This document shows positions 4,342 to 29,183 of a stretch of 32,869 nucleotides of DNA, piece by piece. The notes beneath the pieces are model-generated. The model made no database searches and was not told where the DNA came from. It worked only from the letters and a program-made list of their open reading frames with translations. Position numbers and translations under genes: made by a program. Origin of the DNA: an uncultured Deferribacteraceae bacterium (GTDB lineage Bacteria > Chrysiogenota > Deferribacteres > Deferribacterales > Mucispirillaceae); contig CAMRCY010000025.1 in NCBI GenBank assembly GCA_947041165.1, positions 1-32,869 on the forward strand. Reading direction: 5' to 3'. Within the stretch, counting starts at the first letter, position 1; every line of letters begins with the position of its first letter.

Positions 4342-4439
4342 ATATTACCCTCTTAAATTAAATTTATTACACATACCTTAGCAATGTTTCTGAAACTATT
4401 CCTATCATACAACTTCAAAAAAATAAACCAGCACCAATA

Positions 4440-5456
4440 TTAACCACCCAACTCTTGAGCCTTTTTAATATCTTGCTCTGATTTTTCTAAATCACCTAAC
4501 TCATGATATATATTACTTCTATCGTAATAAGGCTCTACGAAATCAGGATGTGCATCTATAAATTTGCTGTAATCTACAATAGCTTTTTCATACTCATTAA
4601 TAAGAGAATATACATTCGCTCTACTGTAGTATGCTAAAGTATTACTCTGATCTAACTCTATAACTTTGCTATAATCTAGAACAGCACTCTCATAATCACT
4701 CTCATTAAAATATGCATCACCTCTATTATAATATGCTTTTACATAATTTAAATCAATCTCGATAGCCTTACTGTAATCAACAATAGCTTGCTCGTAATCA
4801 TTAAGGCTTGTATATATACAACCTCTCTTATAGTAAGCTTTTGCAAAATCAATATCTATCTCTATAGCCTTACTGTAATCAATAATCGCTTTCTCGTAAT
4901 CACTAAGTTCACGATAAATATCACCTCTATTATAATATGCTTTTATATTTTTTTGATCAATGGTGATAGCTTTGCTGTAATCAGAAATAGCTTTCTCGTA
5001 CTCTTTAAGCATTTGATACGCACCACCTCTATTATTGTAGGCATTCGTATATGAAACTAAATGCTTATTAAGAAGATCGGTATCCATCTTTTCAAACATC
5101 TCTATACATCTGTTAAAATCAGCGATAGATTTATCATACTCATGAAGCTCATAATATAAGTTAGCTCTATTAATACAACCGTTTGTATCGTTTGGATATA
5201 TTGTTATAGACTCAGTGTAATCACTAATCGCTTGCTTGTAATCTTTAAGCATACGATACGCATTACCTCGATTTGTGTAAACACTTGCATAAGCATTTCG
5301 ATAAGCATCTAACTGTCTACTGATAGTATTGCTATCAACTTTATCAAACAATTTTATAGACTTTGTAAAACTGATTATCGACTTATCGTAACTGCCTTCA
5401 ACCAGATCACTCACACCCAAATTCAAACAGTTTAATGCCTCGTCTAATTTACTCAT
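4440..5456 (-). CDS. TPR-repeat protein (about 9 repeats)
   Basis: This 338-aa protein is made of consecutive TPR units, such as AYYNRGDIYRELSDYEKAI and AYYKRGCIYTSLNDYEQAI. Two longer, divergent repeats (around residues 35-60 and 105-125) contain the phrase KMDTDLLNKHLVSY, a relative of KIDSDTLSKHIVNY in the neighbouring protein. I start at ATG 5456 (MSKLDEALN) because AAGGAT stands about 11 nt upstream and the N-terminus then aligns with the paralogue; a longer frame to 5516 adds a hydrophobic, repeat-free leader and lacks a binding site. No enzymatic domain is seen. It is the last chromosomal gene before the phage-like module and is transcribed away from it. A link to the module is possible but unsupported. 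Confidence 0.88.
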   Translation of the reverse strand: MSKLDEALNCLNLGVSDLVEGSYDKSIISFTKSIKLFDKVDSNTISRQLDAYRNAYASVYTNRGNAYRMLKDYKQAISDYTESITIYPNDTNGCINRANLYYELHEYDKSIADFNRCIEMFEKMDTDLLNKHLVSYTNAYNNRGGAYQMLKEYEKAISDYSKAITIDQKNIKAYYNRGDIYRELSDYEKAIIDYSKAIEIDIDFAKAYYKRGCIYTSLNDYEQAIVDYSKAIEIDLNYVKAYYNRGDAYFNESDYESAVLDYSKVIELDQSNTLAYYSRANVYSLINEYEKAIVDYSKFIDAHPDFVEPYYDRSNIYHELGDLEKSEQDIKKAQELGG

Positions 5457-5497
5457 TAAATATATATCCTTAAAATAACATATTAGATAGAACAGAT

Positions 5498-5526
5498 ATT
5501 GTATATTAATAAACAATATTATTCAA
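5498..5526 (-). promoter_or_regulatory. probable promoter of the TPR genes
   Basis: On the minus strand TTGAAT (5521-5526) and TACAAT (5498-5503) are separated by 17 bp, 42 bp before the start of the TPR gene. The -10 region sits in an AT-rich inverted repeat (ATATTGT... facing ACAATAT), which could bind a regulator. Confidence 0.55.
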
Positions 5527-5723: not shown

Positions 5724-5752
5724 TTGACATTTTACCTGAATTCAACTATAAT
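5724..5752 (+). promoter_or_regulatory. consensus sigma70 promoter driving the phage-like module
   Basis: TTGACA (5724-5729), a 17-bp spacer and TATAAT (5747-5752) match the housekeeping consensus at every position. The first gene of the module starts 30 bp further on. A second TATAAT (5688-5693) with CTGAAA 17 bp upstream (5665-5670) is a weaker upstream candidate. No other promoter of this quality was seen inside the module, so it may drive a single long transcript. An unrepressed promoter of this strength would be costly, so a repressor encoded elsewhere is likely (inference). Confidence 0.85.
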
Positions 5753-5781
5753 GCACTATAAATTGAAAAGGGGGAGATAAG

Positions 5782-6333
5782 TTGAGTACAAGTAAACTAA
5801 TTGAAACAATCAATAGTGAATTAATATCAGAACAGTTAGATGAGATAAATGTAAAGTTAGACGAGAGCGAATTAAATAACTTAGATATCGCAACAACTAT
5901 GATGAGTAATGACGGAGTTGATTGCGAGTTTTTAGCTGATGCATTTAACAACTCAAACACTCACATAGTGAGCAACATCAATAACGCAGTTAATTGCGAG
6001 CAACTTTCTGAACAGTTAGATAGCATAGAGTTAGAATTAGATAAAATTGAAACAGTTGTTACAGACAAACTAAATGAGAGCACCAATAACGATCTGTCAG
6101 TTGATCAAGTTCGTAACTTAGATATTATCACATCAAATAAATCTGATGAGAAGGTTGATAGAGAGTTATTATCTGAAGAGTTTGATGAGATGGATATTGA
6201 AACAAATTATAAATACAACAGTAAATATTCTTACGATGAAGTATCTCCAAATGATGATCCTGCTGATCTTGTGGACATCTTTCCAAACATGTTAGGAAAC
6301 GAAAATAGATATTATCCAAAATTTTGGTATTAA
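5782..6333 (+). CDS. acidic internal-repeat protein, first gene of the module
   Basis: This is a 183-aa, strongly acidic protein of unknown function. It begins with TTG at 5782, chosen because AAGGGGGAG (5768-5776) is 5 nt upstream. A short motif of the form E-x-L-[SA]-[ED]-x-[LF]-[DN] occurs four times (residues 13-20, 49-56, 73-80, 128-135), three of them followed by an acidic stretch such as EINVKLDE or SIELELDK. A longer duplication pairs NLDIATT...VDCEFL (34-51) with NLDIITS...VDRELL (112-130). The C-terminus ends with an aromatic tail (NRYYPKFWY). No DNA-binding or membrane segment is visible. Its place directly behind the module promoter would suit a regulator or decoy-like early protein, but that is conjecture. 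Confidence 0.75.
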   Translation: MSTSKLIETINSELISEQLDEINVKLDESELNNLDIATTMMSNDGVDCEFLADAFNNSNTHIVSNINNAVNCEQLSEQLDSIELELDKIETVVTDKLNESTNNDLSVDQVRNLDIITSNKSDEKVDRELLSEEFDEMDIETNYKYNSKYSYDEVSPNDDPADLVDIFPNMLGNENRYYPKFWY

Positions 6334-6348
6334 TTAGGACTAAATTAT

Positions 6349-6747
6349 ATGAATGAAAAGTTGTACTCTTTACTTGATGAAGCGTATCTGCTATCAACTG
6401 AGATTAAAGATATGAATGAAAAATTGAAAAACATAAAAGAAGAAATTATGAAATCAATAGATGTACCGAAAGATAAAAAATCTTTCAAAATATCTACTTC
6501 TAATTTAACGATGAAAGTTACATTTAAAAAAGTATTAAAGTGGGATCAAGTAACATTAGAAAAAATCAAAAATAAGGTAGGTGATAATATTTTCTACAAA
6601 ATATTTACTACTGAATATAAACCGATAAAAAGCGGTATTCAAGATATTTTAAACAATTTTAATAAAGAGATTAGAACTCTATTTAACAAAGCTGTAAAAG
6701 AGGAAAATAGAGCTCCTTATATCGAAATATACAAGGAGAGTAAATAA
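6349..6747 (+). CDS. small phage protein of unknown function
   Basis: This 132-aa, lysine-rich protein has an N-terminal helical, coiled-coil-prone stretch (residues 1-38), then alternating strands (SFKISTSNLTMKVTFKKVLKWDQ, about 45-67) and a helical C-terminal part. The arrangement of a helix followed by 'kv..kkvlkWDq..l..i' is reminiscent of small proteins found before phage terminase genes (DUF7173-like), but I cannot confirm this. It starts 15 nt after the previous gene with a weak AGGA site and ends 3 nt before the small terminase gene. Confidence 0.7.
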   Translation: MNEKLYSLLDEAYLLSTEIKDMNEKLKNIKEEIMKSIDVPKDKKSFKISTSNLTMKVTFKKVLKWDQVTLEKIKNKVGDNIFYKIFTTEYKPIKSGIQDILNNFNKEIRTLFNKAVKEENRAPYIEIYKESK

Positions 6748-6750
6748 TCT

Positions 6751-7173
6751 ATGACTAAAGAAACTATGGTTAAGTTAGATAATTTTCTTAAATATTTAAC
6801 ACAAAATGGAAATGTATCTAAATCAGCTAAAAAAGCAAATGTTGATAGAAGTTACATTTATCAACTTCGTAAAGAAGATATTGAGTTCTCTAAAAAAATG
6901 ACAGACGCAAGATCTATCGCATTTGATCTATTAGAAGAAGAAGCGTTAAAAAGAGCATTAGAGGGCGTTAATCAAAAAGTTTATTATAAAGGAGAAGTTG
7001 TTGACTCTGTAAAAGTTTATTCAGACAAATTGCTCTTAGCGTTACTTAAAGCAAATAATCCAGAAAAATATGCTGAAAATATCGTCAATCGTAATCCTGA
7101 TATTGCAAACTTGCTTAGTAAATCAATTATGAAAAATAAAGAAGAAGATGTGATAAAAAGCATAGATGAATAA
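6751..7173 (+). CDS. terS: terminase small subunit
   Basis: This is probably the DNA-recognition subunit of the packaging terminase, 140 aa. Residues 10-35 form a helix-turn-helix (LTQNGNVSKSAKKANVDRSY). The central and C-terminal segment has the family pattern EEEALKRALEGV..KVYYKGE...YSDKLLLALLKANNPEKY, common in small terminases that precede TerL. AAGGAGAG lies about 10 nt before the ATG. The last 8 nt overlap the start of the large subunit gene, as expected for subunits made together. The DNA site it recognises (cos, pac or non-specific) cannot be inferred. Confidence 0.85.
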   Translation: MTKETMVKLDNFLKYLTQNGNVSKSAKKANVDRSYIYQLRKEDIEFSKKMTDARSIAFDLLEEEALKRALEGVNQKVYYKGEVVDSVKVYSDKLLLALLKANNPEKYAENIVNRNPDIANLLSKSIMKNKEEDVIKSIDE

Positions 7174-8644
7174 GCTTAACTATAACGATAAAGACCTAAA
7201 CATCTTGATGGATTTTTTAGCAGAAACTAGTAACGATCCTTTGAAGTTTGTAGAAAATTTATTTAGATGGGATCAATTAGGAGCATCAAAATTTAAATCC
7301 CCTCTCAAATGGCAAAGGAAGATTTTAGAAGATATTAAAACTGCACTAGATTCTAATGAGAAGATAATTAGAATAGCAACTGCATCTGGACATGGTATCG
7401 GAAAATCTGCACTTGTTGCATGGCTGATACTCTGGGGGATTTCCACTAAACCATACACTAAAGGAGTGATCACTGCTAATACTGAAACACAACTTAAAAC
7501 AAAAACTTGGGCTGAATTATCAAAATGGTACAGGTTATCAATTGTTGCACCTCTACTAAAACTTACAGCAGATTCTGTTCACACAATAGATCAAGCGTGT
7601 GAGAAATCATGGCGAATAGATATGGTGCCGTGGAGTAAACATAACTCTGAAGCGTTCGCTGGATTACATAATCAAGGAGGGAGAGTTCTTCTAATATTTG
7701 ATGAAGCATCATCTATTCCTGATACAATTTGGGAAGTTGCAGAAGGTGCTATGACTGATGATGAAACAGAAATCATATGGATAGTTTTTGGAAATCCAAC
7801 CAGATCATCAGGAAGATTTAAAGAGTGTTTTGGCAGGTTTAGACATAGATGGAAAACGTATCAAATATCATCAAAAGATGTAGAGATCACAAATAAAAAG
7901 CAGATCAACAGATGGATTGAAGATTATGGTGTTGATTCAGATTTTGTGCGTATTAGAGTTTTAGGAGAGTTTCCACTGTTATCGCAAAACCAACTTATCG
8001 GATACGACACTATCAACATATCTAGAAACAGAAATATCTCTCTAGATGATGTTGAAGGTGAGCCTAAAGTTATTGGAGTTGATGTTGCGAGATTTGGAAA
8101 TGACTTATCAGTTATCGTACTTAGGCAAGGCAGATTAATTATAGATATCGAAAGATATTACAAAATAGACACAATGAAACTATCTGGAATAATCGCTGAA
8201 AAAATAGCTCAATTTTCACCAGATATAATATTTATAGATCAAACAGGTGTTGGAGGAGGTGTTGTTGATAGACTGCATCAGTTAGGATTTAAAGATGTTG
8301 TTGGAATAGATTTTGGATCATCTGCAACTAACAAAAAAATGTATCTTAATAAGCGTGTTGAAATGTGGCATAAGATGTCTAAGTGGATTAAAGATAAAGG
8401 AAAATTAATTGATGACAAAGATCTTATTAACGATCTTATATCTCCAACTTATTCGTACTCTGGTGATAGCTCGCAAATGATTTTAGAGAAAAAAGACTCA
8501 ATGAAAAAAAGAGGGTTAGCATCACCTGACTCTGCTGACGCTTTAGCATTAACATTTGCACATGATATAAATATTGACCTGCATAGTAAAAATATTGAAA
8601 AAAGAAATAATATCTTGAACGATTTAACAGATATTAACTTATAG
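7166..8644 (+). CDS. terL: terminase large subunit (ATPase-nuclease)
   Basis: This is the DNA packaging motor and nuclease, 492 aa, close to the usual TerL length. The N-terminal ATPase has a Walker A motif GHGIGKS (75-81), Walker B LLIFDE (175-180) and coupling motif FGNPT (208-212). The C-terminal RNase H-like nuclease has its acidic residues in GVDVARFGND (D306), FIDQTGVGGG (D359) and SPDSADALAL (D455/D458). All key residues are present, so the motor should work. It docks on the portal encoded just downstream. Its integrity argues that the particle still packages DNA. Confidence 0.96.
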   Translation: MNKLNYNDKDLNILMDFLAETSNDPLKFVENLFRWDQLGASKFKSPLKWQRKILEDIKTALDSNEKIIRIATASGHGIGKSALVAWLILWGISTKPYTKGVITANTETQLKTKTWAELSKWYRLSIVAPLLKLTADSVHTIDQACEKSWRIDMVPWSKHNSEAFAGLHNQGGRVLLIFDEASSIPDTIWEVAEGAMTDDETEIIWIVFGNPTRSSGRFKECFGRFRHRWKTYQISSKDVEITNKKQINRWIEDYGVDSDFVRIRVLGEFPLLSQNQLIGYDTINISRNRNISLDDVEGEPKVIGVDVARFGNDLSVIVLRQGRLIIDIERYYKIDTMKLSGIIAEKIAQFSPDIIFIDQTGVGGGVVDRLHQLGFKDVVGIDFGSSATNKKMYLNKRVEMWHKMSKWIKDKGKLIDDKDLINDLISPTYSYSGDSSQMILEKKDSMKKRGLASPDSADALALTFAHDINIDLHSKNIEKRNNILNDLTDINL

Positions 8645-8653
8645 AGGTAAACA

Positions 8654-9028
8654 ATGGGAGTAGCGGCAGCAATCATCGGTGGCTTAGGAATTAGTAAATT
8701 TATTTTCGACACAGTTAGCGGTAGCATAGAAAGTTCTAACTCACAAAAAGCAATTAAAGAGGCTGAAGAGAAGTTAGCAAAAGAACAAAGAGAGGCTGAA
8801 GCAGAAGTCAAAAAACAGCTGGATGATGAAAGAAAATTACAAGATGTAAAAGATAAAACTTTAAGAGAAGATGCGTATCTTAACAGAAAATACGATTACG
8901 ATTCAGAAAGTAATGACACATATGTACACACTGGAAATAGTAATGAATCAGTTTATACTCCAACTATTTTAGGTGGCAGTAGTAACTCAAGTATTAGTTT
9001 AAATAAAAAAATGACAAGAAGAGTATAG
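8654..9028 (+). CDS. small pre-portal protein (T7 gp7.3-like position)
   Basis: This 124-aa protein has a short glycine-rich, hydrophobic N-terminus (residues 2-22), a charged coiled-coil (about 30-70, rich in E, K, A and Q) and a polar tail ending in a Ser/Gly-rich and then basic stretch (SLNKKMTRRV). A small protein with this arrangement and such a tail often precedes the portal gene in T7-like phages, where T7 gp7.3 is a minor virion protein acting in tail assembly or adsorption. The similarity is of layout and composition only. Good binding site AGAGG at 8643-8647. Confidence 0.7.
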   Translation: MGVAAAIIGGLGISKFIFDTVSGSIESSNSQKAIKEAEEKLAKEQREAEAEVKKQLDDERKLQDVKDKTLREDAYLNRKYDYDSESNDTYVHTGNSNESVYTPTILGGSSNSSISLNKKMTRRV

Positions 9029-9035
9029 GATAGTT

Positions 9036-10712
9036 ATGAACACAGATAAATTAAAAGAATTAGCTTGCAACATCGACAGAAATATTAAAAAACTCGCTAA
9101 GCTACGATCAGATCATATATCAATTTATAAAGAAATCACTCGATATATCTGTCCTGAAAGAGGAAGATATCCTAGTTATAACAACAAGTTAGATGGGTAT
9201 AATTCAATCAACAGTAAAGCAAATAAATATCTACATAACCTTGCATCAATTTTGCAATCTGGATTAACATCCCCTGCTCGTCCATGGTTTAAATTAGCGT
9301 TGCAGAATAAAAAAGTTTATGAGTGGGGTGCTGTTAGAAGTTACTTATCTGAAATTGAAGAGATCATGTCACGCATTTTTAGAGTAACAAATTTCTATCC
9401 AGCTATATATTCTGCATATATTGAACTCACTGCATTTGGCACGGCTGTGATGTCTACAATGGAGAATAGTGACGAAGATAAAAACGGTTACCCGATTTTT
9501 ACAACCTACACAGCTGGGCAATATTTGCTATCTCAAAACAGTAATGGTGAAGTTGATAAAGTTTATCGAACTCAGATAATGACAGTTGAACAGATAATCA
9601 ACAGGTTTAAAGATAAAGGATTTAAGACGATTGAAAAGCTTAAAAACTATAGTCTTGATAATGAACTTAAAGTTATTCATGCAGTAGAGAAAAGAGAAGA
9701 AAGAGATCGTTCTAAGATAGATAAATATAATATGCCCTACTCTTCTATATGGATGATTGATGGATTTACCGATAAAGAAGGTTTCGGTATTTTAGACATT
9801 TCAGGTTACAACGAAATGCCATATCACATTGCAAGATGGGATGCTTTAAATGATGAGCCTTACGGAATTGGTCCTGGAATTAAAGCTTTTAAGGATGCTA
9901 AAAATCTAAATATTTTAGAACAGATTACAACTTATGGTTTAAATAAAGCTGTTAATCCTCCTATTTTAGTTCCGTCATTTATGAATATAAAACTCAACAA
10001 TGCACCAGGTGGTATCACCTATTATGCAGGACGACATGATGAGTTTCAAGTTAAGCCTCTATACACTGTATCATCTGATTTGAACGCTGCATTAGTGTTT
10101 ATGAATAGATGGGAAGAGGTTCTCAAAGAGAGTTTTCAAAACGATCTTTTTATATACATGATGAATAGATCAAATGTTACAGCAACTGAAATCAATGAAA
10201 GGTCTGAAGAGAAACTTCTACTCCTAGGGCCTGTGCTTGAAAGAATTGAAACAGAACTTCTAATCCCATGTTTTGACAGAGTGTTTGCGATATTAGAAAG
10301 GAACAACCTTCTACCTCCTGCACCTGTTGAACTATTGGGGTTAGATATCAAACCTGAGTTTATAGGTTTACTTGCGAACGCTCAAAAAGCGATCACAAAA
10401 TCATCTATAAAAAACTTAATCAATTTTGTATCGTACGCAACACAAGTTGATAGTAATGCAACAGACAAGATCGATGTAGATCAAGCTATAGATATCTACT
10501 CATCAATTGAAGGTGTTCCAAATGGTATGGTTAGATCGGATGAAGAAACTGTAAATATCAGACTTAAACGAGAAGAAGTTTTGTCTATGCAGCAGAGTGC
10601 TATGAGTGAAAGTACTAATGTTAAAGAAGCTATTGATTATGCATCTAAATTATCGAAAATTGATTTAGGTAAAAACAGTGTATTAAAAAATGCTATTGAA
10701 GGTGGTTTATGA
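9036..10712 (+). CDS. portal protein (head-to-tail connector, T7 gp8-like)
   Basis: This is the dodecameric portal through which DNA enters and leaves the capsid, 558 aa, matching the T7-type connector family (PF12236). The hallmark N-terminal region reads NLASILQSGLTSPARPWFKL (residues 68-87), close to the family phrase 'LAS.L.S.LTPP.RPWF'. The wing and clip continue with YIELTAFGTAVM (about 129-140) and a proline-rich segment LLPPAPVEL (near 430). The stop codon overlaps the next start (ATGA). No frameshift or missing region is seen. Confidence 0.93.
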   Translation: MNTDKLKELACNIDRNIKKLAKLRSDHISIYKEITRYICPERGRYPSYNNKLDGYNSINSKANKYLHNLASILQSGLTSPARPWFKLALQNKKVYEWGAVRSYLSEIEEIMSRIFRVTNFYPAIYSAYIELTAFGTAVMSTMENSDEDKNGYPIFTTYTAGQYLLSQNSNGEVDKVYRTQIMTVEQIINRFKDKGFKTIEKLKNYSLDNELKVIHAVEKREERDRSKIDKYNMPYSSIWMIDGFTDKEGFGILDISGYNEMPYHIARWDALNDEPYGIGPGIKAFKDAKNLNILEQITTYGLNKAVNPPILVPSFMNIKLNNAPGGITYYAGRHDEFQVKPLYTVSSDLNAALVFMNRWEEVLKESFQNDLFIYMMNRSNVTATEINERSEEKLLLLGPVLERIETELLIPCFDRVFAILERNNLLPPAPVELLGLDIKPEFIGLLANAQKAITKSSIKNLINFVSYATQVDSNATDKIDVDQAIDIYSSIEGVPNGMVRSDEETVNIRLKREEVLSMQQSAMSESTNVKEAIDYASKLSKIDLGKNSVLKNAIEGGL

Positions 10713-11014
10713 CAACAGATAAGAGTTCTATTTATTGGCAAAATTCTATTACAGATATAAGTAAGAGTGATAGTGGTATAAGTTTTTTAACCACCCTTCT
10801 TGTAAAGGTTGGGCATTTTACAGGGTCATTTACAACAGGTGCTACGATCTATAAAAACGCAGCACTATCTGATCTTGGTAAATGGCTAGAAAGTGAACTT
10901 GATAAAATTGATTTAAATATAATGATAAAAATCAAAAAAGAGCTACACAATATTGAATACACAAACCTAGAAAATATAAATCAAAAAGAGGAAGACTTAA
11001 ATGCAAAATATTGA
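10709..11014 (+). CDS. Bbp19-like phage protein
   Basis: This 101-aa protein has the core 'GISFLTTLLVKVGHFTGSFT', then 'KNAALSDLGKWLESEL' (about residues 23-65). That corresponds to the small family typified by Bordetella phage BPP-1 Bbp19 (a conserved '..FL..LL...G.f..sFt......f..G.r..g..L' pattern), which sits between portal and scaffold genes in podoviruses. Its function is unknown. It overlaps the portal gene by 4 nt and the scaffold gene by 14 nt, implying translational coupling. Confidence 0.75.
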   Translation: MTTDKSSIYWQNSITDISKSDSGISFLTTLLVKVGHFTGSFTTGATIYKNAALSDLGKWLESELDKIDLNIMIKIKKELHNIEYTNLENINQKEEDLNAKY

Positions 11015-11609
11015 TGCACCAGTAAACGCAGAAAACACAGATATAATTAATGGAAATAAAGTAGATAACATAAATGATAAACAGATATCCACTCACGAAA
11101 ATAGTTTAAGTGTGGATGAAATTATACCTGAAAATTTTAACGACTATGAATTAGAAAGAAACGAAAACATACCAACAAATGAGAAAGTTGATTCAGAGTT
11201 TAAAGAGTTAGCACAAAAACTTAAACTAAACCATAAACAGGTGAAAGAGATAAGTAGCTGGGCTAATAAAACAACTTTAGAATCTATAAACAACTACAAC
11301 ATAGATATGGAACAAAAAAGAGAAGATACTTTAACTCAACTTAAAACTGATTGGGGAAGTCAACATGATGCTAATCTTAAAAAGTCAATTTCAACAGCTA
11401 AAAGATTAACAGAGTTTGCTCCTGAATTTGGTGAGTATATTGAAGAATCTAAAGCTGGTAATGATCCTAAATTTATCAAAATGGTACTTAAACTTGGTGA
11501 ACTTATAAGCGAAGATAAGTTAAATATTTCATCAGGTGTATCTGCTGATAAAAAAAATTATTTAGGCAATCTACCAGTACTCTCGTTCGACTCTATGGAG
11601 AGCAAGTAG
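11001..11609 (+). CDS. capsid assembly scaffold protein
   Basis: This is a 202-aa, acidic, mostly helical protein located between portal and capsid genes, where T7 encodes scaffold gp9. The first 60 residues are polar and look disordered. The core reads FKELAQKLKLNHKQVKEIS...LTQLKTDWGSQHDANLKKS, followed by FIKMVLKLGELISEDKL. This matches the usual scaffold plan ('W...D.N...A' then 'li..l.klG'). It should chaperone HK97-fold capsid assembly and leave the procapsid. Binding site AGAGGAAG lies inside the preceding gene. Confidence 0.85.
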   Translation: MQNIDAPVNAENTDIINGNKVDNINDKQISTHENSLSVDEIIPENFNDYELERNENIPTNEKVDSEFKELAQKLKLNHKQVKEISSWANKTTLESINNYNIDMEQKREDTLTQLKTDWGSQHDANLKKSISTAKRLTEFAPEFGEYIEESKAGNDPKFIKMVLKLGELISEDKLNISSGVSADKKNYLGNLPVLSFDSMESK

Positions 11610-11650
11610 TTATTAATTAAGCAATTCACAATTATAGTAAAGGAGAAATA

Positions 11651-12631
11651 ATGGCAGAAAATTTAACAATTCAGGATATTCTAAATAGTATAGATATGAA
11701 AGGTAACGCTGCAAAAGTTGCAGAGATATTATCAAAAGCAAATCCAATTCTTAGAGATGCTCCTTGGATGGAAGCTAATGAATCTTTCGGATATAAATTC
11801 GCACGTAGAACAACTTTGCCTACTGGAGAGTGGCGTTCAATTAACTCTGGTGTTACTAACGAAGTTGCAACAACTATACCTGTAACTGAACCTATGGGGA
11901 TGCTTGAAACTTACTCTGAGATAGATAAAGCATTAGTAGATAACCACCCTCACCCTGATTATTTCCGTATGATTAATGCTAACGGATTTATTGAAGGTAT
12001 GGGTCAAACAATGGCTCAAGGGATCATCTATGATAGTAATACTGATAACAAAACTAGAGTAAATGGTTTAGCTCCTAGGCTTAATTCAACAGATAAATTC
12101 AACGTATATAATAGTGGTGGATTAGTGACTTCAACAACGTTAACATCATGTTATCTTGTACAGTGGGGCGTTGATAAAACTTTCTTATTCCACCCTAAAA
12201 ACCACAAAAGTAAAGGTGTTGAACATCAAGATCTTGGAGAGGTAACATTAAATGATATAGCTAATAAAAAGTATCAAGGTTACAGAGATCACTTTAAAGT
12301 TCATTGCGGTTTAGGTGTTATGGATGAAAGAGCAATCGCTAGACTTGCCAATATTGATGTTGCTAAAAAAGCTGGTGATGCATCAGGTGGATTTAATGAA
12401 AATCTTTTAATTGAAGCTATAAATCAATTTAATAACGACGCTGAAAATGTTGTCTTATATGTAAATAAAAAATTGAAAACAATAATGGAAATTGCACTAA
12501 AAGATAAAAACAATATCAACTATACTTTAGAATCAAACTTAGGTGGATTACCTCTTCTACGTTTTAGAGGAGTACCTGTTAGAACTCTAGATATAATCAC
12601 AAACAACGAAACATTCGTTCCAGAAGCATAA
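11651..12631 (+). CDS. major capsid protein (HK97 fold, epsilon15 gp7/BPP-1 type)
   Basis: This is the shell protein, 326 aa. Recognisable segments are MAENLTIQDIL, then ILRDAPWMEANESFGYKFAR and TTLPTGEWRSINSGV (residues 32-75), and ETYSEIDKAL (about 90-99). These fit the coat family of epsilon15 gp7, for which an HK97 fold is established. AAGGAG stands 6 nt before the ATG, the clearest binding site in the module, as expected for the most abundant product. No cleavable delta domain or fused decoration domain is apparent. A hairpin follows the gene. Confidence 0.9.
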   Translation: MAENLTIQDILNSIDMKGNAAKVAEILSKANPILRDAPWMEANESFGYKFARRTTLPTGEWRSINSGVTNEVATTIPVTEPMGMLETYSEIDKALVDNHPHPDYFRMINANGFIEGMGQTMAQGIIYDSNTDNKTRVNGLAPRLNSTDKFNVYNSGGLVTSTTLTSCYLVQWGVDKTFLFHPKNHKSKGVEHQDLGEVTLNDIANKKYQGYRDHFKVHCGLGVMDERAIARLANIDVAKKAGDASGGFNENLLIEAINQFNNDAENVVLYVNKKLKTIMEIALKDKNNINYTLESNLGGLPLLRFRGVPVRTLDIITNNETFVPEA

Positions 12632-12644
12632 TAAATAGTCAAAC

Positions 12645-12675
12645 GCTAACTCATACTTTTATGGTATGGGTTAGC
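12645..12675 (+). terminator. hairpin after the capsid gene (T7 Tphi-like position)
   Basis: GCTAACTCATAC (12645-12656) pairs with GTATGGGTTAGC (12664-12675) as a 12-bp stem with one G-U pair and a 7-nt loop. It lies in the 63-nt gap between capsid and tail adaptor genes, the place of the leaky terminator Tphi in T7. It lacks a T-run (ATTATACATA follows), so it is more likely a processing or mRNA-stability element, or a weak attenuator. Confidence 0.6.
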
Positions 12676-12694
12676 ATTATACATAGGTGTAAAA

Positions 12695-13255
12695 ATGTTA
12701 ACAAAAATAGATATATGCAATATCGCATTAGGTTTAATAGGCACAAGTTTTATTAAATCATTTGATGAAAAAAGTAAAGAAGCGCTCGTTTGCAAACAAT
12801 ATTATGATAACTGTAAAGATAAACTCCTCTCAAGATATGATTGGTCGTTTGCAAGAAAAATTGCAAAACTTGCTAAAGTTGTTGATGATGATAAATCACT
12901 CTCACAAAATATTTTTAAGAATATATTTCAACTACCAACTGATATGATCAGCATTATAAAAGTTTTTGAAAGTAACAGCTACGATTTCGTTGTGTCAGTT
13001 GATAAACTATTAACCAACCTTGATAGTGTAACAATTCTTTACACATCAAATGGAGTGAATGTTCATCTTTATACTCCACTATTTATCGACTCGCTAACAT
13101 CAACTTTAGCATCAGATTTAGCAGTTACTATAACGGACAACTATCAACTATCAGCAAACTTAAAGATCCTTGCTGAAGAGAAATTGAAAGTTGCATCTGT
13201 TGTTGATGCAAATAGCTTTAGTTCAAACTCAAGAGATAACATCTCTAATTTATAA
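12695..13255 (+). CDS. tail adaptor / tail tubular protein A (T7 gp11-like)
   Basis: This 186-aa protein is the ring that connects portal to nozzle. The N-terminal signature ICNIALGLIGTSFIKSFDEK, then ALVCKQYYDNCKDKLLSRYD and WSFARKIAKL (residues 7-60), matches the gp11/tail tubular A family ('iN.aL..iG...I.s.dE.s..A..c...Yd..rd.lL....W.FA'). The family phrase LPTDMISIIKV follows near residue 80. Length fits T7 gp11 (196 aa). Binding site AGGTG lies before the ATG. The order after the capsid gene is the same as in T7. Confidence 0.9.
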   Translation: MLTKIDICNIALGLIGTSFIKSFDEKSKEALVCKQYYDNCKDKLLSRYDWSFARKIAKLAKVVDDDKSLSQNIFKNIFQLPTDMISIIKVFESNSYDFVVSVDKLLTNLDSVTILYTSNGVNVHLYTPLFIDSLTSTLASDLAVTITDNYQLSANLKILAEEKLKVASVVDANSFSSNSRDNISNL

Positions 13256-13279
13256 CATTAAATCAATTAGGATAAAATC

Positions 13280-15340
13280 ATGGCTTTAATAATATGGAAA
13301 AATTTCTCAGCAGGAGAGATATCTCCTCTACTATCAGAAAGAACAGATATAGATCTGTATTACCGTGCAGCTAAAAAAATAGAAAACTTTATACCTCTAA
13401 AATTTGGAGGTGTAAAACGACGAGATGGTTTAAAATTTATGGGTGTAATGAATGAAAATATATATGACCCTGGTACAAAATTTATCCCCTTTAAATACTC
13501 TGAAAGTGTGTCTTACATACTAGAATTTTCTCATCAGTATTTTAGAGTGATAACACCTAACGGCTACTTATTAGATAACAATAATGTAATACTGAAAATT
13601 TATTGTGGAATATCCGTCAAATATATTAATGATGTTTCTTATGCACAATATGAAAACAAATTATATATGTGTCATAGTAAATTTCCTCCTAAAATAATAG
13701 AGCTAAACGGTACAACTTGGAAAAGTTACGAAATGAAGTTTAATTCAGAATCTAAAAAAGTTCTAGCAGTAACAGTTTTAACCCCTAGACCAACTGGAAA
13801 ACCTATACCCGAAGGAACGGTATATAAAAATGTTTCATACACTGTAATACCATTTGATAAAGATAATATACCTGGGTATAAATCATACGTACTACAAACT
13901 AAAGATGTGCCAAAATACCCTACTCAAGATTTTTACACATATATAAGTTGGACTGCTTGTAACGATGCTAGTGGATATCTTCTGTATGAAGTTGAAGATG
14001 GTATAGAGTCATTCCTTATGAAGACAACAAAAACTATTTATAAAGATTTTGGATACCACGCTCTAAATCACAATAAAGGTTTTCCTCAACAAACATCTCT
14101 TTTTACAACTACAGATCAATACCCGTCTAAAGTTACTTTTTATGACAGGAGATTAATTTTTGCAGCATCAAATAAAGAACAGCATACAATTTGGGGATCA
14201 GCCCCTGCTCTCTTTCATAATCATATGGCTGAAAGTATTCCAACAGATGCTTGTCCTTGGAAATTTACAGTAGCATCTAATCAGAAAAATCCTATTAACT
14301 GGTTATTTTCATCTGACAAATTAATTGTCGGTTCTGACTCTGATGAATGGAGAGTAAGCGGAAGCTCTGGTGAAAGTATAACTCCAAACTCTATAGAAGT
14401 TAGAAGACTCTCTTCATGGGGATCAGCAGAAATGACTCCTAAAGCGTTAGGTGATGATATTCTTTTTATAGATAACACGAGAAAAAATATTCGTGCTATG
14501 AATAAAAATAATAATTTTAGTATATCAAATTTAAATATTTATGCAGACCATCTAACTAAAGATTGTAAAATTGTAAACTGGGATATCGTTACTGGCGACA
14601 ATCAGATTATCTACCTTGTGTTAGATAATGGATCTATGATCGGACTTACATACGATAAAGATCATCAAGTGTTTGCATGGCATAGATACACTACTGATGG
14701 AAAATTTCTAGATGTATGTATGCTTAAAAACAATGGTGAATGTAACTTATTTGTATCAATTGAAAGAGAGGTTGATGGTAAGAAAATAACAACATTAGAG
14801 ATGTTCGACAACAGTCATTATCTAGATTCTTTTATCTCATATAATGGAGATGAGATTACGAAACTTGAAGGCTTAAATCACTTAAAAGGCAAGGTTGTTG
14901 AAGTATCTACAAACACTAAATCTAGTAAAAAATATACAGTAGATAAGGAAGGTATGATAACTCTAGATGAGCCTTCAAATAATATTGTAGTAGGCTTAAA
15001 CTTTGAATCAGTTTTAGAAACATTACCGTTAGAATCTGCAACAGCTGTTGAATCTCTAAAAGTTAGAAAAAATAAAATCACAAGTATAAAACTTAAAATA
15101 ATTGATACACTTGGATTAGAAGTTGGAATACATAATGATGATTTAATGATGCTACAGTACGATAATGTTGAGAATAATAACATCAATAATAGCAATAATT
15201 TAGACCTATACTCTGGAACTAAGTATGTTGGAAATATTTCTGGCTATGATGAGAATTGCTCAATAATCATTAAACAAAACAACTCATTGCCTGCAACAAT
15301 TTTAAGTATCTATGCTGAAGTTCTCGGTATCGCATTATAA
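13280..15340 (+). CDS. tail nozzle / tail tubular protein B (T7 gp12-like)
   Basis: This 686-aa protein forms the tail nozzle. The N-terminal family signature NFSAGEISPLLSERTDIDLY, then ENFIPLKFGGVKRRDGLKF (residues 8-51) is typical of podovirus nozzle or tail tubular B proteins ('F..GElsp.l..R.D...Y..g...leNfi....Gg..rRpGt.fv'). A beta-rich propeller-like body follows (for example VSGSSGESITPNSIEVRRLS, near 355). Length is somewhat below T7 gp12 (794 aa). It ends TAA at 15340, in the same frame as the next gene but separated from it by a second stop, TAG (15344-15346). Confidence 0.88.
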   Translation: MALIIWKNFSAGEISPLLSERTDIDLYYRAAKKIENFIPLKFGGVKRRDGLKFMGVMNENIYDPGTKFIPFKYSESVSYILEFSHQYFRVITPNGYLLDNNNVILKIYCGISVKYINDVSYAQYENKLYMCHSKFPPKIIELNGTTWKSYEMKFNSESKKVLAVTVLTPRPTGKPIPEGTVYKNVSYTVIPFDKDNIPGYKSYVLQTKDVPKYPTQDFYTYISWTACNDASGYLLYEVEDGIESFLMKTTKTIYKDFGYHALNHNKGFPQQTSLFTTTDQYPSKVTFYDRRLIFAASNKEQHTIWGSAPALFHNHMAESIPTDACPWKFTVASNQKNPINWLFSSDKLIVGSDSDEWRVSGSSGESITPNSIEVRRLSSWGSAEMTPKALGDDILFIDNTRKNIRAMNKNNNFSISNLNIYADHLTKDCKIVNWDIVTGDNQIIYLVLDNGSMIGLTYDKDHQVFAWHRYTTDGKFLDVCMLKNNGECNLFVSIEREVDGKKITTLEMFDNSHYLDSFISYNGDEITKLEGLNHLKGKVVEVSTNTKSSKKYTVDKEGMITLDEPSNNIVVGLNFESVLETLPLESATAVESLKVRKNKITSIKLKIIDTLGLEVGIHNDDLMMLQYDNVENNNINNSNNLDLYSGTKYVGNISGYDENCSIIIKQNNSLPATILSIYAEVLGIAL

Positions 15341-15355
15341 GATTAGGAGGTTACA

Positions 15356-15850
15356 ATAATAATCGAAAATATTGGAAAAACAAAACATAATAAAAAGCTA
15401 CATATTGAAACCAGGGACTCTACATCTAATGATCTCATAGGGTTTGAGCCTCGCTACGATGATGATAAAAACTATATTAATGAGCTTACTTTATACATAG
15501 AAAACTTTCCTACAACTACACTTTTAATAGACAATAAAATTATTGCAATTGGTGGTTTTATTAGAAGTCATAAAGGGGTATGGAGCAGTTGGAATATAGT
15601 GTCTAAAGATTATGCAAATTATAAAAAAAGTACATTTAAATATATTGCAACCACTTTCTATAAATTGAAAGAACGAATTAAATCTATTGAAACAGTTCAT
15701 CGGTTTCAAGCACTTATACGAGCTGATAGACCTGAGGCTATAAAATTTAATCTTCTACTTGGGTATAAAAAAGAAGCGGTACTAAAGCAGTATGACATAT
15801 ATAAAAATGATGTATTAATTATGTCTGAATTAATTAAAGGAGATGAATAG
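15356..15850 (+). CDS. T7 gp13 / GNAT-fold phage protein with a non-canonical (ATA) start
   Basis: The open frame runs from 15347 after a TAG and encodes about 164 aa, but it contains no ATG, GTG or TTG until GTG 15599. AGGAGG (15345-15350) stands 5 nt before ATA 15356 and 8 nt before ATA 15359, so one of these should be the start. The conserved body begins well before 15599: IIAIGGFIRSHKGVWSSWNI, then RADRPEAIKFNLLLGYKKEA near the C-terminus. This is the GNAT-like fold of T7 gp13-type proteins (DUF2833/GNAT). The acetyl-CoA binding pattern RxxGxG is not seen, so it may be structural. The order nozzle, gp13, gp14, gp15 matches T7. A sequencing error is possible but would have to remove the start codon only. 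Confidence 0.75.
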   Translation: MIIENIGKTKHNKKLHIETRDSTSNDLIGFEPRYDDDKNYINELTLYIENFPTTTLLIDNKIIAIGGFIRSHKGVWSSWNIVSKDYANYKKSTFKYIATTFYKLKERIKSIETVHRFQALIRADRPEAIKFNLLLGYKKEAVLKQYDIYKNDVLIMSELIKGDE

Positions 15851-16450
15851 ATGGGTGCAATGACAATGGTTGACATGACAACCTTAACTGCTGGATTAAA
15901 AATGATTGGAGGTATAAGTGGTGGTCAAAGTGATAATGCTACATCTAAAATGCAGAGCAGATATAATATATCAAACCTTAAAATGGATAACAGTATTAAA
16001 AACCATAACATAAATTTAGATATACTAACCACTAAACGAGAGGCTGAACAGATACGAACTCAAAATAGTTACGATATGTTTGAGTACGATTATCAAACAT
16101 CAAATACTGTTGCAAGTCGTGAGGTTGAAATTCTTTCATCAGGTGTAGAACTTTCAGGATCAGCTTCAGCTGTTTTAAATGGAATAGAAAATCAAGTTAT
16201 AACAGAGAGAGAAAGCAGAGTACAGATGCAAAATAGCGAAGCAATAAAAAGAGAACATCTTGCAACCAATCTACTGCATGAAATAAATTATAACAATATC
16301 TTAACTGATTATAATATTAAAGCAGCAGAGTTCGGACTGAATAATACCCTTAGCAAAAACAACTCTGATATCTTTAGCTCACTCGGAAGCTCTATGAATG
16401 ATTTATATAAAGATATTAATAAACTAAATACAGCTACACAAACAAAATAA
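15851..16450 (+). CDS. internal virion protein (T7 gp14-like)
   Basis: This is a 199-aa protein of the ejected core that would form the outer-membrane part of the DNA ejection channel. It has a glycine-rich N-terminus (GLKMIGGISGGQ, residues 15-26) and a long helical region with the phrase REVEILSSGVELSGSASAVL (about 94-113), typical of gp14-like proteins ('..i...l..sGv..sGS...vl'). It is Asn- and Ser-rich. The ATG directly follows the stop of the previous gene with AAAGGAGA upstream, so translation is probably coupled. Length matches T7 gp14 (196 aa). Confidence 0.75.
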   Translation: MGAMTMVDMTTLTAGLKMIGGISGGQSDNATSKMQSRYNISNLKMDNSIKNHNINLDILTTKREAEQIRTQNSYDMFEYDYQTSNTVASREVEILSSGVELSGSASAVLNGIENQVITERESRVQMQNSEAIKREHLATNLLHEINYNNILTDYNIKAAEFGLNNTLSKNNSDIFSSLGSSMNDLYKDINKLNTATQTK

Positions 16451-16512
16451 CCGTATGAAATAATTATAAATCTATCGCAATAAAGTAACATTAAAATTAA
16501 TGGAGAGTAATA

Positions 16513-17715
16513 TTGGCTACTATAAATAAAGTTGATTACAATAAAAGTATTAGTAACAAAAAGCAGACAACAATCTTATCTGCAATCTATGATCAAGAAA
16601 CATTAGATGCACTATCAATATATAAAGTTCTATCAAAAGAGAACGACTTTATCGTCTATCTTAACGAACAAATTGATGAAGCTAAAAATAAGAATGAAGA
16701 AGAAATTTTAAATATACTATTTGAACTATCAGAAACATTTAAGAAAACAATTAAAGAGATTACTAAAACGCTTACATCAAACACTGAAAAAATAGCGTTC
16801 ATGAAATTTGCAGAATCTAAAGTTAGCAGAGAACTTACTGCACTACATACCTACTGTATGAATAAAATTGAAGAGAAAAAAAATATCGAGTTACAAAGAT
16901 ACTGTGACTATTTAATCGATAACTCAAATGTAAATTATAATAATTTTCAAATACATGAAGAGAATATAACTTACTATAAAAACTATATATCTATATTAAA
17001 TAAAAACAGTAAAGACTCTCTCAAAATAGCTGAATACAACATCTATAAAGCAGCCATAACTGGATCTATAGAAAGTAAAGATTATGCCTTCGCAAAATCT
17101 ATATTAAAAATTAAAAAAATCTCTAAATTGTTTTCTGAAAGCGAAATATTAATGTGTGAAACATTAATTAAAAAAATATATGAAGAAGCATTAATAAACA
17201 AATTAGAAAGCAGTTTTGTGATCTCCACTGATAAAACCTTAGATCAAAATATATCAGAAATAAACTCAGCTATGGCAAGTGGTTTAATCGATAAAGAAAC
17301 AGCCGATAGCCTGATTGAAAAGATTAAAGACAATAATACTTTTAAAGAATTCTACTTTAAAAAAGAGATCAGTAATACAGTTATCTCAACAATTTATCAA
17401 CTGTTAAACGATATCTATTCATCGAAAACATACGATATAAATTATCGTGATATTAATCTTGATGCAAGCTCAAAACATTTTATAAGAACAGTTATTGAGA
17501 ACTCACTCATAGCCACCACTGATAAAATTAAAGAGAAAAGATTTAAACTATTCGAAAGCTTAACTAATAAAATAGGTTCTGGATTTATTGATGATATATA
17601 CACAGTTATTAAGTCTGTTGAGGTGTTAACATATTTTCAAATATCAGATGCTTTAAAAATCATTAAGATATTTATTGAAGCTGAAAGTCAACGAACTACA
17701 GTCATCAAGGAGTAA
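16513..17715 (+). CDS. probable internal virion protein (T7 gp15-like position)
   Basis: This 400-aa protein is almost entirely alpha-helical, lysine/glutamate-rich, without signal or membrane segments. It starts with TTG 16513 behind GGAGAG (16502-16507). Helix-pair phrases such as IYKAAITGSIESKDYAFAKS and INSAMASGLIDKETADSLIE (about 186-205 and 252-271) recall the helical-repeat pattern of gp15-type ejection proteins. Position after gp14 supports this. It is much shorter than T7 gp15 (747 aa), and no gp16-like partner with a transglycosylase domain follows. I recognise no specific family; the assignment rests on position and secondary structure. Confidence 0.6.
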   Translation: MATINKVDYNKSISNKKQTTILSAIYDQETLDALSIYKVLSKENDFIVYLNEQIDEAKNKNEEEILNILFELSETFKKTIKEITKTLTSNTEKIAFMKFAESKVSRELTALHTYCMNKIEEKKNIELQRYCDYLIDNSNVNYNNFQIHEENITYYKNYISILNKNSKDSLKIAEYNIYKAAITGSIESKDYAFAKSILKIKKISKLFSESEILMCETLIKKIYEEALINKLESSFVISTDKTLDQNISEINSAMASGLIDKETADSLIEKIKDNNTFKEFYFKKEISNTVISTIYQLLNDIYSSKTYDINYRDINLDASSKHFIRTVIENSLIATTDKIKEKRFKLFESLTNKIGSGFIDDIYTVIKSVEVLTYFQISDALKIIKIFIEAESQRTTVIKE

Positions 17716-17718
17716 AAA

Positions 17719-17949
17719 ATGGAGCTACTACCTATATTAAAACTTATCGTAACAGATAGCATTCCGATTGCAATTCTACTTATATTCCTTGTTGCAAAAT
17801 TCAATATGATTGAACATAAAATGAAAGACCTAAGAAGTCATTTCGATATTTATATACGAGATAATTATATCACTCGTGATGAGTGTGGCGCTAATCGTGT
17901 CGCAACAAAAGTTGTTAAAAAAGTTAGCACAAGGAAGAGTACAAAATGA
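17719..17949 (+). CDS. small single-span membrane protein, possible holin or holin partner
   Basis: This 76-aa protein has one membrane helix (about residues 9-27, IVTDSIPIAILLIFLVAKF), a short amphipathic helix and a basic tail (KVVKKVSTRKSTK). The phrase DNYITRDEC resembles the middle of XhlA-type and other small phage membrane proteins. It begins 3 nt after the gp15-like gene and its stop overlaps the next start (ATGA). Position at the head of the lysis genes suggests holin, antiholin or partner of the next protein; sequence alone cannot decide. Confidence 0.6.
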   Translation: MELLPILKLIVTDSIPIAILLIFLVAKFNMIEHKMKDLRSHFDIYIRDNYITRDECGANRVATKVVKKVSTRKSTK

Positions 17950-18248
17950 TTGAAGAAATGATTTTAACAAAACTGATACCATATGTTTTACCTGCATTTA
18001 TGATAAATATTATTCTTGATTTTATAAAGAAAAACTTTTTCATACTTAAACCAAAGTTGGTTATGCCGATTTTAGCACTGCTTCTTTCATTAATACTATC
18101 AGTTACTTACTCTATACTTGTTAATTCTTCTGGATTAGATAAATTTACGCATGCTATATCTATAATAGGTATATCATTTTTTATGTACGACATCGGAGGT
18201 TATCAATCTATGAAAAATAAGTTACTTAAACTAGTAACTAGAAAGTAG
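17946..18248 (+). CDS. putative holin
   Basis: This 100-aa, strongly hydrophobic protein has two or three membrane helices (about residues 9-25, 37-60 and 69-84) and a basic C-terminus (MKNKLLKLVTRK). Size, topology and the location just before spanin and endopeptidase genes fit a holin that opens the inner membrane at lysis. It overlaps the preceding small membrane protein by 4 nt, and the two may act as a pair. No family signature was recognised. Confidence 0.65.
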   Translation: MIEEMILTKLIPYVLPAFMINIILDFIKKNFFILKPKLVMPILALLLSLILSVTYSILVNSSGLDKFTHAISIIGISFFMYDIGGYQSMKNKLLKLVTRK

Positions 18249-18253
18249 GTATT

Positions 18254-18469
18254 ATGCAGAAATATTTAACAGTGATTTTATCAATTATAAATACAATTTT
18301 AGTCGGTGCGATATCATTAATTGTAGTAATCGGAAAGAATAGAAAAATTAAAGAGAAAGAAAAATTAGTAGAAGAGATTGAAAAAAAAAGTGAGGTTGAG
18401 AGAAAAATATTACAACTTAATGATAGTTTGAAGAAAGGTGAAAATAATGATTCGCATAATAAATGGTAG
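18254..18469 (+). CDS. i-spanin (Rz-like)
   Basis: This 71-aa protein has an N-terminal membrane anchor (about residues 5-27) followed directly by a charged coiled-coil (KEKEKLVEEIEKKSEVERKI, 34-53). This is the arrangement of an inner-membrane spanin subunit with a periplasmic coil. Its 3' end overlaps, in another frame, the start of a lipoprotein-like gene, the classic Rz/Rz1 arrangement. The coil is short compared with lambda Rz. The pair fuses inner and outer membrane at the last step of lysis, so the particle is released from a Gram-negative cell. Confidence 0.75.
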   Translation: MQKYLTVILSIINTILVGAISLIVVIGKNRKIKEKEKLVEEIEKKSEVERKILQLNDSLKKGENNDSHNKW

Positions 18470-18740
18470 CTTAATAACAGCCGTAATTTTAATACTTATA
18501 ACTCTTCAACTCTCATGTAGTAGACATGTAGTCATTTCTAAATGTCCTAAATTATACCCAGTAGATCGACCTGCATTTCCTGAGATCAAATACATTGAAA
18601 CGATCGCAGAAAATATGTATTGTTACGATAACATGAATTTCAATTTACTTAAAGAGAGGTTAGTTTTTTGTAAAAGCAGTACAGAAATTTATGAACAAAT
18701 GATAAAAATTTATATGGAGTATATTAATGAAATTAGGTGA
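18447..18740 (+). CDS. o-spanin-like lipoprotein (Rz1-like)
   Basis: From ATG 18447 (AAAGG 8 nt upstream) the product is 97 aa. It has a hydrophobic signal (about residues 8-22) ending in an imperfect lipobox LQLSC with C24 as the lipidation site. A short proline-containing stretch follows (CPKLYPVDRPAFPEI). A GTG at 18438 is in frame but overlaps the binding site. The gene starts inside the i-spanin gene in another frame and ends inside the endopeptidase gene. It would sit in the outer membrane facing the i-spanin. It is longer than typical Rz1 and has four additional cysteines or more after C24, which could form disulfides. Confidence 0.7.
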   Translation: MIRIINGSLITAVILILITLQLSCSRHVVISKCPKLYPVDRPAFPEIKYIETIAENMYCYDNMNFNLLKERLVFCKSSTEIYEQMIKIYMEYINEIR

Positions 18741-19065
18741 AGCACAAGAGGTTTTTACATACAATGTATCTAAACTTATCCAGCATTCTGTAGCACTTGG
18801 ATATACAGTCAGGTTGCGTGAAGTTGAACGAACTTCTTACCAACAACAACAATACGTAAAACTAGGAGTTTCTAAAACAATGAACTCGCTACATCTTAAA
18901 TCGTTAGCAGCAGATATATACTTTTTCAAAAAAGCTAAATTAATTTTAAGTAAAAAACAGCTAAAAGAGTTAGGAACATATTGGGAATCTTTAGATAAAC
19001 ATAATCGTTGGGGTGGGAATTTTAAATCATTTACAGATACGCCACACTTTGAAATGGATATATAA
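18727..19065 (+). CDS. M15-family peptidoglycan endopeptidase (endolysin)
   Basis: This 112-aa protein is a zinc peptidase of the M15 family (VanY/L-alanyl-D-glutamate peptidase type) that cuts peptide stems of peptidoglycan. The zinc ligands are in SLHLKSLAAD (H56, D63) and TPHFEM (H107), with the usual tryptophan-glycine motif NRWGGNF (93-99) before the last. There is no signal peptide, so release depends on a holin. It overlaps the o-spanin gene by 14 nt and is the last gene of the module. Length fits compact phage M15 endolysins (110-140 aa). Confidence 0.9.
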   Translation: MKLGEAQEVFTYNVSKLIQHSVALGYTVRLREVERTSYQQQQYVKLGVSKTMNSLHLKSLAADIYFFKKAKLILSKKQLKELGTYWESLDKHNRWGGNFKSFTDTPHFEMDI

Positions 19066-19140
19066 AACTTATATTTATGTGTTATATAAATTATACAGTT
19101 TGAAATATTTTAACACAACTAACCTACTCTAATATTTCTA

Positions 19141-19300
19141 TCATATAGTTGACGTGTTTTGAATATAGTTGTCGTGTGTTTTAACGAAACTGATAATTTA
19201 TTTTAATCATATAGTTGACTTGTTTTGAATATAATTATTGTGTGTTTTAACTAAACTAATAATTTATTTCAATCATATAGTTGACGTGTTTTAAACACAT
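19141..19300. repeat. 66-bp tandem repeat at the right edge of the module
   Basis: TCATATAGTTGAC recurs at 19141, 19207 and 19273, a 66-bp period with about 2.4 copies. Each unit itself contains two diverged halves with the core GTTG(A/T)CGTGTGTTTT. The last copy includes the palindrome GTGTTTTAAACAC (19286-19298). The rest of 19066-19396 holds no gene that I can support. The array separates the last phage gene from rsfS. Confidence 0.9.
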
Positions 19301-19396
19301 TGACAACGTGTTTAGGATATACTATTAGTATGTTTTAATTAAGTAAACTGATTGACGCAATATTTAATCTAATAAATTTTGCATCAACAAATTTGT

Positions 19397-19452
19397 ATAG
19401 GTAATATGTAATTACAGTAAATGATATATGCAAAAAATTACGTATTACCTAT
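19397..19452. terminator. large hairpin between the module and rsfS, possible bidirectional terminator
   Basis: ATAGGTAATATGTAATT (19397-19413) pairs with AATTACGTATTACCTAT (19436-19452): a 17-bp stem with one G-U pair around a 22-nt loop. It lies 14 nt beyond the end of rsfS and between two convergent transcripts. T-runs on either side are short (TTTT at 19457-19460), so intrinsic termination is plausible but not textbook. Confidence 0.55.
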
Positions 19453-19466
19453 ATATTTTAAAATAA

Positions 19467-28981: not shown

Positions 28982-29011
28982 TTATTTAAAATAATCTACA
29001 ATAATATAAAT

Positions 29012-29048: not shown

Positions 29049-29183
29049 ATATACTGAGTTATCTATCTGTAATATCTTTATTATTTAAATGCCTCGTAGT
29101 AGCTAATTTGTAGCAAATAGTGTAGTTAATTTGTAGCAAATTTTGAAACAATTACTCAAGCGTAGCGAAGCAGTAACTTATAG

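Follow-up and report, generated by a model that had tools for sequence, protein, structure and literature searches.

What does a bacterium keep when it keeps the head, tail and lysis genes of a short-tailed phage next to ordinary chromosomal genes? The question is raised by contig CAMRCY010000025.1 of assembly GCA_947041165.1, an uncultured Deferribacteraceae bacterium (Mucispirillaceae in GTDB) with a 2.14 Mb draft genome that is 98.6% complete in 70 contigs. The 32.9-kb stretch analysed here, called the window, is contig 25 at its full length of 32,869 nucleotides. Positions 5724–19065 (13.3 kb) hold 19 uninterrupted open reading frames (ORFs), all on the + strand, which we call the module. 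It comprises two leader ORFs, the small and large terminase subunits (TerS, TerL), portal, scaffold, a GP7-type major capsid protein (MCP), tail tubes A and B, a gp14-like protein and a lysis cassette. We estimate a probability of about two in three that a podovirus of the epsilon15/BPP-1 type has here been domesticated by its host and works like a gene transfer agent (GTA). An earlier note on this DNA had already suggested a domesticated, GTA-like locus. The first half of that suggestion is now backed by chromosomal site, synonymous divergence, selection and gene content, while the step to a GTA is an argument by analogy. The locus is thus a candidate for working like a GTA, not a member of the class.

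Inheritance and selection in the genus

The genus is sampled by four species, all draft metagenome-assembled genomes (MAGs), three of which (the window's species, G001 and G003) assemble the module region. The module lies at the same chromosomal site in all three. In the window it is flanked on the left by polIV, an AMP ligase gene and tetratricopeptide-repeat (TPR) genes and on the right by rsfS-nadD-proA-proB, all ordinary chromosomal genes; profile searches thus agreed with the earlier note, which had placed chromosomal genes directly on both sides. In G003 the module is joined to the same genes on the left (polIV, AMP ligase, TPR) and on the right (rsfS, nadD, proA, proB). In G001 the end of the module continues into the right flank; the left flank sits on another contig, which breaks off in the TPR repeats. 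Looking for the same locus in related genomes, a check that the note had proposed, therefore returned the same flanks in every genome that assembles the region. No full prophage was found at the site in the genus genomes covering it, and the window portal had matches in only 3 of 46 genomes of the order, all from this genus.

The fourth species, G002, gave no match to the module, polIV, nadD, proA or NrdJ, although its rpoB shares 96% identity with the G003 gene. A loss of the module as a sign of mobility was ruled out, since the flanking nadD, proA and NrdJ were likewise not found there. The absence is most likely a gap in the MAG and hence uninformative.

We calculated synonymous divergence (dS) and the ratio of nonsynonymous to synonymous divergence (dN/dS) as length-weighted means for the three species pairs, using 16–17 module genes per pair and eight flanking genes. 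The first ORF (o1) and the scaffold gene were excluded from these means, and a contig end truncates the scaffold and MCP genes of G003, leaving fewer pairs for them. Module dS was 0.557, 0.681 and 0.617, as compared to 0.505, 0.604 and 0.538 for the flanking genes; dN/dS for the same pairs was 0.085, 0.086 and 0.091 in the module and 0.073, 0.065 and 0.061 in the flanks. The earlier note had proposed computing dN/dS for TerL, portal and capsid. TerL, portal, MCP, tail tube A and endolysin range from 0.012 to 0.049, and purifying selection on the structural genes is strong. The faster-evolving genes are o1, o5, o12, the scaffold and the outer spanin. Every module ORF is open and of near-constant length wherever contigs of the three species cover it, in line with the note's statement that frameshifts are lacking. 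Module and flanks also give the same closest species pair, which with three species is a weak test of tree congruence. Since module dS is close to that of the flanks and dN/dS is low and near theirs, the module has been inherited vertically under purifying selection and is not decaying. These sequence comparisons fit an old resident under selection rather than a recent or decaying prophage. Three outcomes that the note had set against its own proposal were examined, and none occurred: a complete prophage at this site, a module missing from close relatives, and relaxed selection.

Profile searches detected no phage-type integrase, repressor, polymerase or replication gene in the window; the earlier note's reading that integrase, repressor, replication and RNA polymerase genes are missing thus held up. 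A functional prophage is ruled out by the lack of integrase, repressor and replication genes in the window together with the chromosomal flanks. An ordinary decaying prophage remnant would account for the many missing phage genes, but no ORF is broken in three species, dN/dS is around 0.09 and the promoter is conserved. The open ORFs and the dN/dS of 0.085–0.091 led us to reject this explanation, which is barely credible. It also seems very improbable that the module is the late part of a split or satellite-like phage with its remaining genes at other places in the genome. The 70 contigs and the lack of fibre genes in the window would allow for it, but module dS is close to that of the chromosomal flanks in three species. 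A profile for the giant ejection protein of related phages (phrog_9880) had no match in the four genus genomes, which would also speak against a split phage, but weakly, as none of the controls was matched either. Domestication of the module is well supported by the sequences because it occupies the same locus in three species, its dS is near that of its neighbours, it is under purifying selection, life-cycle genes are missing and no full prophage occupies the site.

Two further observations concern the left and right parts of the window. The two TPR-repeat protein genes beside the module (3469–5516) vary in number and layout between species. At 29000–30200, an AraC-family gene is 98–99% identical to that of G001 (dS 0.02), whereas surrounding genes have a dS of about 0.5; this tract may reflect either a recent recombination event involving these two species or an artefact of binning.

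Gene content and phage ancestry

Genes were named from profile searches (PHROG, Pfam) of the window proteins, and some by position or translation alone. The earlier note had counted about 20 intact, co-oriented genes; they are intact and co-oriented, and number 19:

5782..6333, +, o1, first gene of the operon, function unknown; 50–56% amino acid identity between species (tblastn)
6349..6747, +, o2, phage protein of unknown function (phrog_2480, 1.4e-5); 89–92% amino acid identity between species
6751..7173, +, terminase small subunit, Sf6-type (phrog_4044, 1.8e-32; PF20901, 1.8e-5, residues 10–111, slightly below the curated cut-off)
7166..8644, +, terminase large subunit (phrog_5902, 1.5e-68), ATPase and nuclease residues intact; dN/dS 0.020–0.043
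8654..9028, +, o5, small, unknown, between TerL and portal like small ORFs in relatives; dN/dS 0.24–0.29
9036..10712, +, portal, the head-to-tail connector (PF12236, 2.7e-117; portal chain 8ck0_A, 1.6e-93)
10709..11014, +, o7, small head-region protein, 96/93% identity between species; its position matches a phage gene of ~98 aa after the portal
11001..11609, +, scaffold (phrog_458, 8.5e-17; phrog_3742, 6.2e-16); matches the gene preceding the capsid gene in phiV10, UFJF and Carin1
11651..12631, +, MCP of the GP7/epsilon15-BPP-1 type (PF20911, GP7, 1.9e-88); matches the solved structures 3j4u, 3j40 and 8cjz
12695..13255, +, tail tubular protein A, adaptor (phrog_394, 8.3e-40); dN/dS 0.012–0.024
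13280..15340, +, tail tubular protein B, nozzle (phrog_376, 6e-133)
15599..15850, +, o12, small, at the position of internal virion protein A (position alone); intact in three species
15851..16450, +, internal virion/ejection protein, T7-gp14-like by a weak match (PF24072, 5.6e-5, slightly below the curated cut-off)
16513..17715, +, o14, helical 400-aa protein at the position of the gp15 ejection protein, with an all-helical low-confidence model; dN/dS 0.07–0.12
17719..17949, +, small membrane-anchored protein, presumably holin-like, with a single N-terminal hydrophobic segment; intact in three species
17946..18248, +, putative holin, several membrane segments in translation, no family match in profile searches
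18254..18469, +, putative inner spanin, N-terminal membrane anchor and charged helix, preceding the lipoprotein gene
18438..18740, +, putative outer spanin, lipobox LQLSC in translation
18727..19065, +, endolysin, M15 peptidase (PF13539, 5.4e-8; phrog_465); dN/dS 0.026–0.034

TerL has a Walker A motif SGHGIGKS (74–81), a Walker B motif FDEA (178–181) and the acidic residues D306, D358 and D458. An alignment with one P22-type TerL and two phage TerLs showed all of these residues except S81 to be invariant, confirming that the Walker and nuclease residues are kept, as the note had read. The 'protease' label attached to 11001..11609 by phrog_458 was set aside in favour of scaffold, on the basis of its position and of the phage homologues in scaffold position. 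The structure model of o14 has a mean pLDDT (predicted local distance difference test) of 45.

The three structures matched by the MCP are the capsids of BPP-1, epsilon15 and the Cobetia phage Carin1. The complete phages vir555, UFJF_PfDIW6, BPP-1, phiV10 and Carin1 share with the module the order TerL-portal-scaffold-MCP-tail tube A-tail tube B-gp14. Identities to podoviruses of the epsilon15/BPP-1 type (Uetakevirus, Rauchvirus, Carin1, UFJF_PfDIW6, vir555) are about 33–38% for the MCP, about 32–35% for the portal and up to 49% for TerL. The earlier note had proposed a T7/BPP-1-like ancestor; we read the ancestor as a podovirus of the epsilon15/BPP-1 kind.

The module differs from these phages mainly by what it lacks. 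In all five, at least two genes separate the MCP gene from tail tube A, that of the Carin1 cement protein among them, whereas tail tube A of the module starts 64 bp after the MCP gene with nothing in between. Large structural proteins come after the shared order in these phages, and four of the five have one of about 2,000–2,900 aa, which has no counterpart in the module. The same phages have tail spikes or fibres as well as genes for replication, and often carry an integrase; the module has none of these and no repressor, and measures 13 kb as compared to their 39–44 kb. Its internal-virion set is trimmed to the gp14-like and the 400-aa helical protein, with the lysis genes directly 3' of o14; no giant gp16-like protein or tail spike was found in the module. 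The ejection proteins reported by the earlier note hence come down to a gp14-like protein with a weak match and o14 by position, without the giant one.

In IMG/VR, the closest capsid is 40% identical (the capsid search gave 10 at 30–40%) and the closest TerL 53%. A search with a few exact peptide seeds, which could miss distant relatives, returned no portal relative. With the closest capsid at just 40% and no portal relative from the seed search, there is no known recent phage source. Uncultured phages very commonly carry a TerL of this family (phrog_5902; IMG/VR loci L121–L268). The 148 IMG/VR contigs that were fetched include 106 with a relative of the window portal and 9 with a relative of SU10-type portals.

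Control, packaging and delivery

Two candidate control elements frame the operon:

5724..5752, +, candidate sigma-70 promoter, TTGACA-17-TATAAT, matching the consensus in 12/12 positions, with a candidate operator in the spacer
19394..19455, no strand assigned, long hairpin, likely terminator (z = -5.8 vs shuffles), located where the lysis operon and rsfS converge, with arms conserved in three species

The promoter hexamers do not differ among the three species. Their near-identical spacers differ at one base and contain a palindrome that reads TTGAATTCAA in G001 and G003 and TGAATTCA in the window. Allowing up to 3 mismatches, each genome has only one copy of the promoter/spacer motif, which rules out scattered co-regulated loci. 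An uncontrolled promoter of this strength before lysis genes would kill the cell, suggesting a repressor encoded elsewhere that possibly acts on the spacer palindrome. No LexA DNA-binding domain was found in the four genus genomes; control by LexA (SOS) is therefore unlikely, and the repressor is probably a different protein. At the start of o1 (5782–5840), the first ~57 nt are near-invariant in three species, as opposed to 50–56% identity for the remainder; the o1 leader is under extra constraint at the nucleotide level. The intergenic region 19066–19390 is AT-rich and has several imperfect copies of TATAGTTGACGTGTTTTGAATATA, apparently confined to the window's species.

A GTA-like locus of this composition would work as follows. 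Upon a rare or late signal, the repressor would leave the promoter at 5724 and the single operon would be expressed. Its products would build a head, TerS and TerL would fill it with DNA, a short tail would be attached, and holin, spanins and endolysin would open the cell. The packaged DNA would be host chromosome, because genes for excision, replication or phage propagation are not present. Delivery is the weakest step, since no fibre turned up and the giant ejection protein has been lost.

The same missing parts would suit a domesticated killer or lysis particle (PBSX-like), which may package host DNA but kills competitors or releases cell contents and delivers no genes. The lysis cassette is complete and conserved, and the module lacks genes for receptor binding and for the giant ejection protein. 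Still, we consider such a particle unlikely: TerL, TerS, portal, MCP and tail tube A belong to the best-conserved genes, so filled heads matter. Moreover, killer particles usually retain variable receptor-binding genes, and none were seen in the module.

Packaging might also have a fixed start, with TerS recognising a pac site within the module or close to it and ordered headfuls of the flanking chromosome being filled as in lateral transduction. TerS matches the Sf6-type family across the domain and TerL is related to that of P22-type headful phages, but a replication or excision gene that could amplify the site is not present, and we regard domesticated packaging of this kind as distinctly unlikely.

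Several points weigh against a GTA-like function. The lack of a tail fibre in the module and of the giant ejection protein of most relatives could impair delivery, and the full Sf6-type domain match kept by TerS could favour a pac site. The capsid type makes heads of ~40 kb in phages, and the whole 13-kb module might fit inside. Finally, the evidence is genomic and comes from only three species of one uncultured genus, all draft MAGs.

The sister genus and known gene transfer agents

The sister genus, probably Mucispirillum with the cultured mouse commensal Mucispirillum schaedleri, has a TerL in 10 of 10 sampled species that is 53–55% identical to the window TerL. It belongs to a different head module:

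L016:8823-15114 (G006:C1:1043822-1050113), SU10-type head module of TerS, TerL, portal, scaffold and capsid (portal PF23899, 6.3e-124; capsid PF17236, 3.9e-40)

In the three species read, no tail genes adjoin this module and no lysis genes lie beside it. Its TerL and portal distances track rpoB distances in nine species (Mantel r 0.98 and 0.985), and dN/dS is 0.06–0.13 for TerL and 0.07–0.10 for the capsid; the module thus co-diversifies with its hosts and is under purifying selection. The sequences thus make it a second candidate domesticated particle locus. The two modules share the host family, a TerL with 53% identity and vertical maintenance, but the sister genus has an SU10-type portal and capsid with no detectable relationship to those of the window. 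In a TerL tree of 148 tips, whose viral tips were picked by similarity to these queries, the TerLs of the two genera are sisters with a support of 0.95. The ratio of TerL to rpoB distance is 2.2–2.4 between the genera, above most of the values within a genus (1.4–2.7, mostly near 1.6). That both genera inherited one TerL is thus no more than possible. That the ancestor of the Mucispirillaceae had a podovirus-derived GTA, with TerL passed on to both genera and the capsid-portal set exchanged (GP7/epsilon15 vs SU10 type), is a rather doubtful extension; if true, it would describe a GTA changing the shell around an inherited terminase. The sister genus, which appears to include the cultured M. 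schaedleri, offers a testable case, with a head module of its own that is kept under selection in each of the ten species sampled.

If DNA-filled particles are made from the window module, it would be a GTA-like system of the Deferribacterota, a phylum for which we found no GTA reports in the open-licence literature. It would also be the second podovirus-derived one after FpGTA of Faecalibacterium (PMC12946183), with an ancestor of the epsilon15/BPP-1 type. Domestication of short-tailed phages would then have happened repeatedly in gut bacteria, and the lost cement-region genes, giant ejection protein and spike would be phage parts that such a particle might dispense with.

GTAs have been defined (PMC9662315) by caudoviricete-derived proteins, caudovirion-like particles, mostly random host DNA, an endogenised genome, a small head that bars full self-packaging, mostly vertical inheritance with co-diversification with the host, and DNA delivery to cells. 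Three of the six features in this definition are seen here: caudoviricete-derived proteins, full chromosomal endogenisation (one shared site in the three species, and a locus that has no genes for integration or replication) and mostly vertical inheritance with co-diversification. The recognised GTA viriforms RcGTA, BaGTA and VSH-1/BhGTA, three groups found to be of independent origin (PMC9662315), are by description likewise phage-derived, chromosomally fixed, vertically inherited and intact, and reside in hosts other than that of the module. The earlier note had considered a podovirus-derived GTA unusual, a view overtaken in part by FpGTA, which was reported as podovirus-like in January 2026 (PMC12946183); the module is thus not the first podovirus-like candidate. 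Compared by description, both come from a gut bacterium, have TerS, TerL, portal, scaffold and capsid in an operon, carry lysis genes and are conserved across their genus. FpGTA belongs to the Bacillota and is split over a 10.5-kb and a 5.5-kb operon, and its particles and DNA of ~9 kb have been demonstrated (PMC12946183), whereas the module, known from its genes, is a single 13.3-kb locus of the Deferribacterota.

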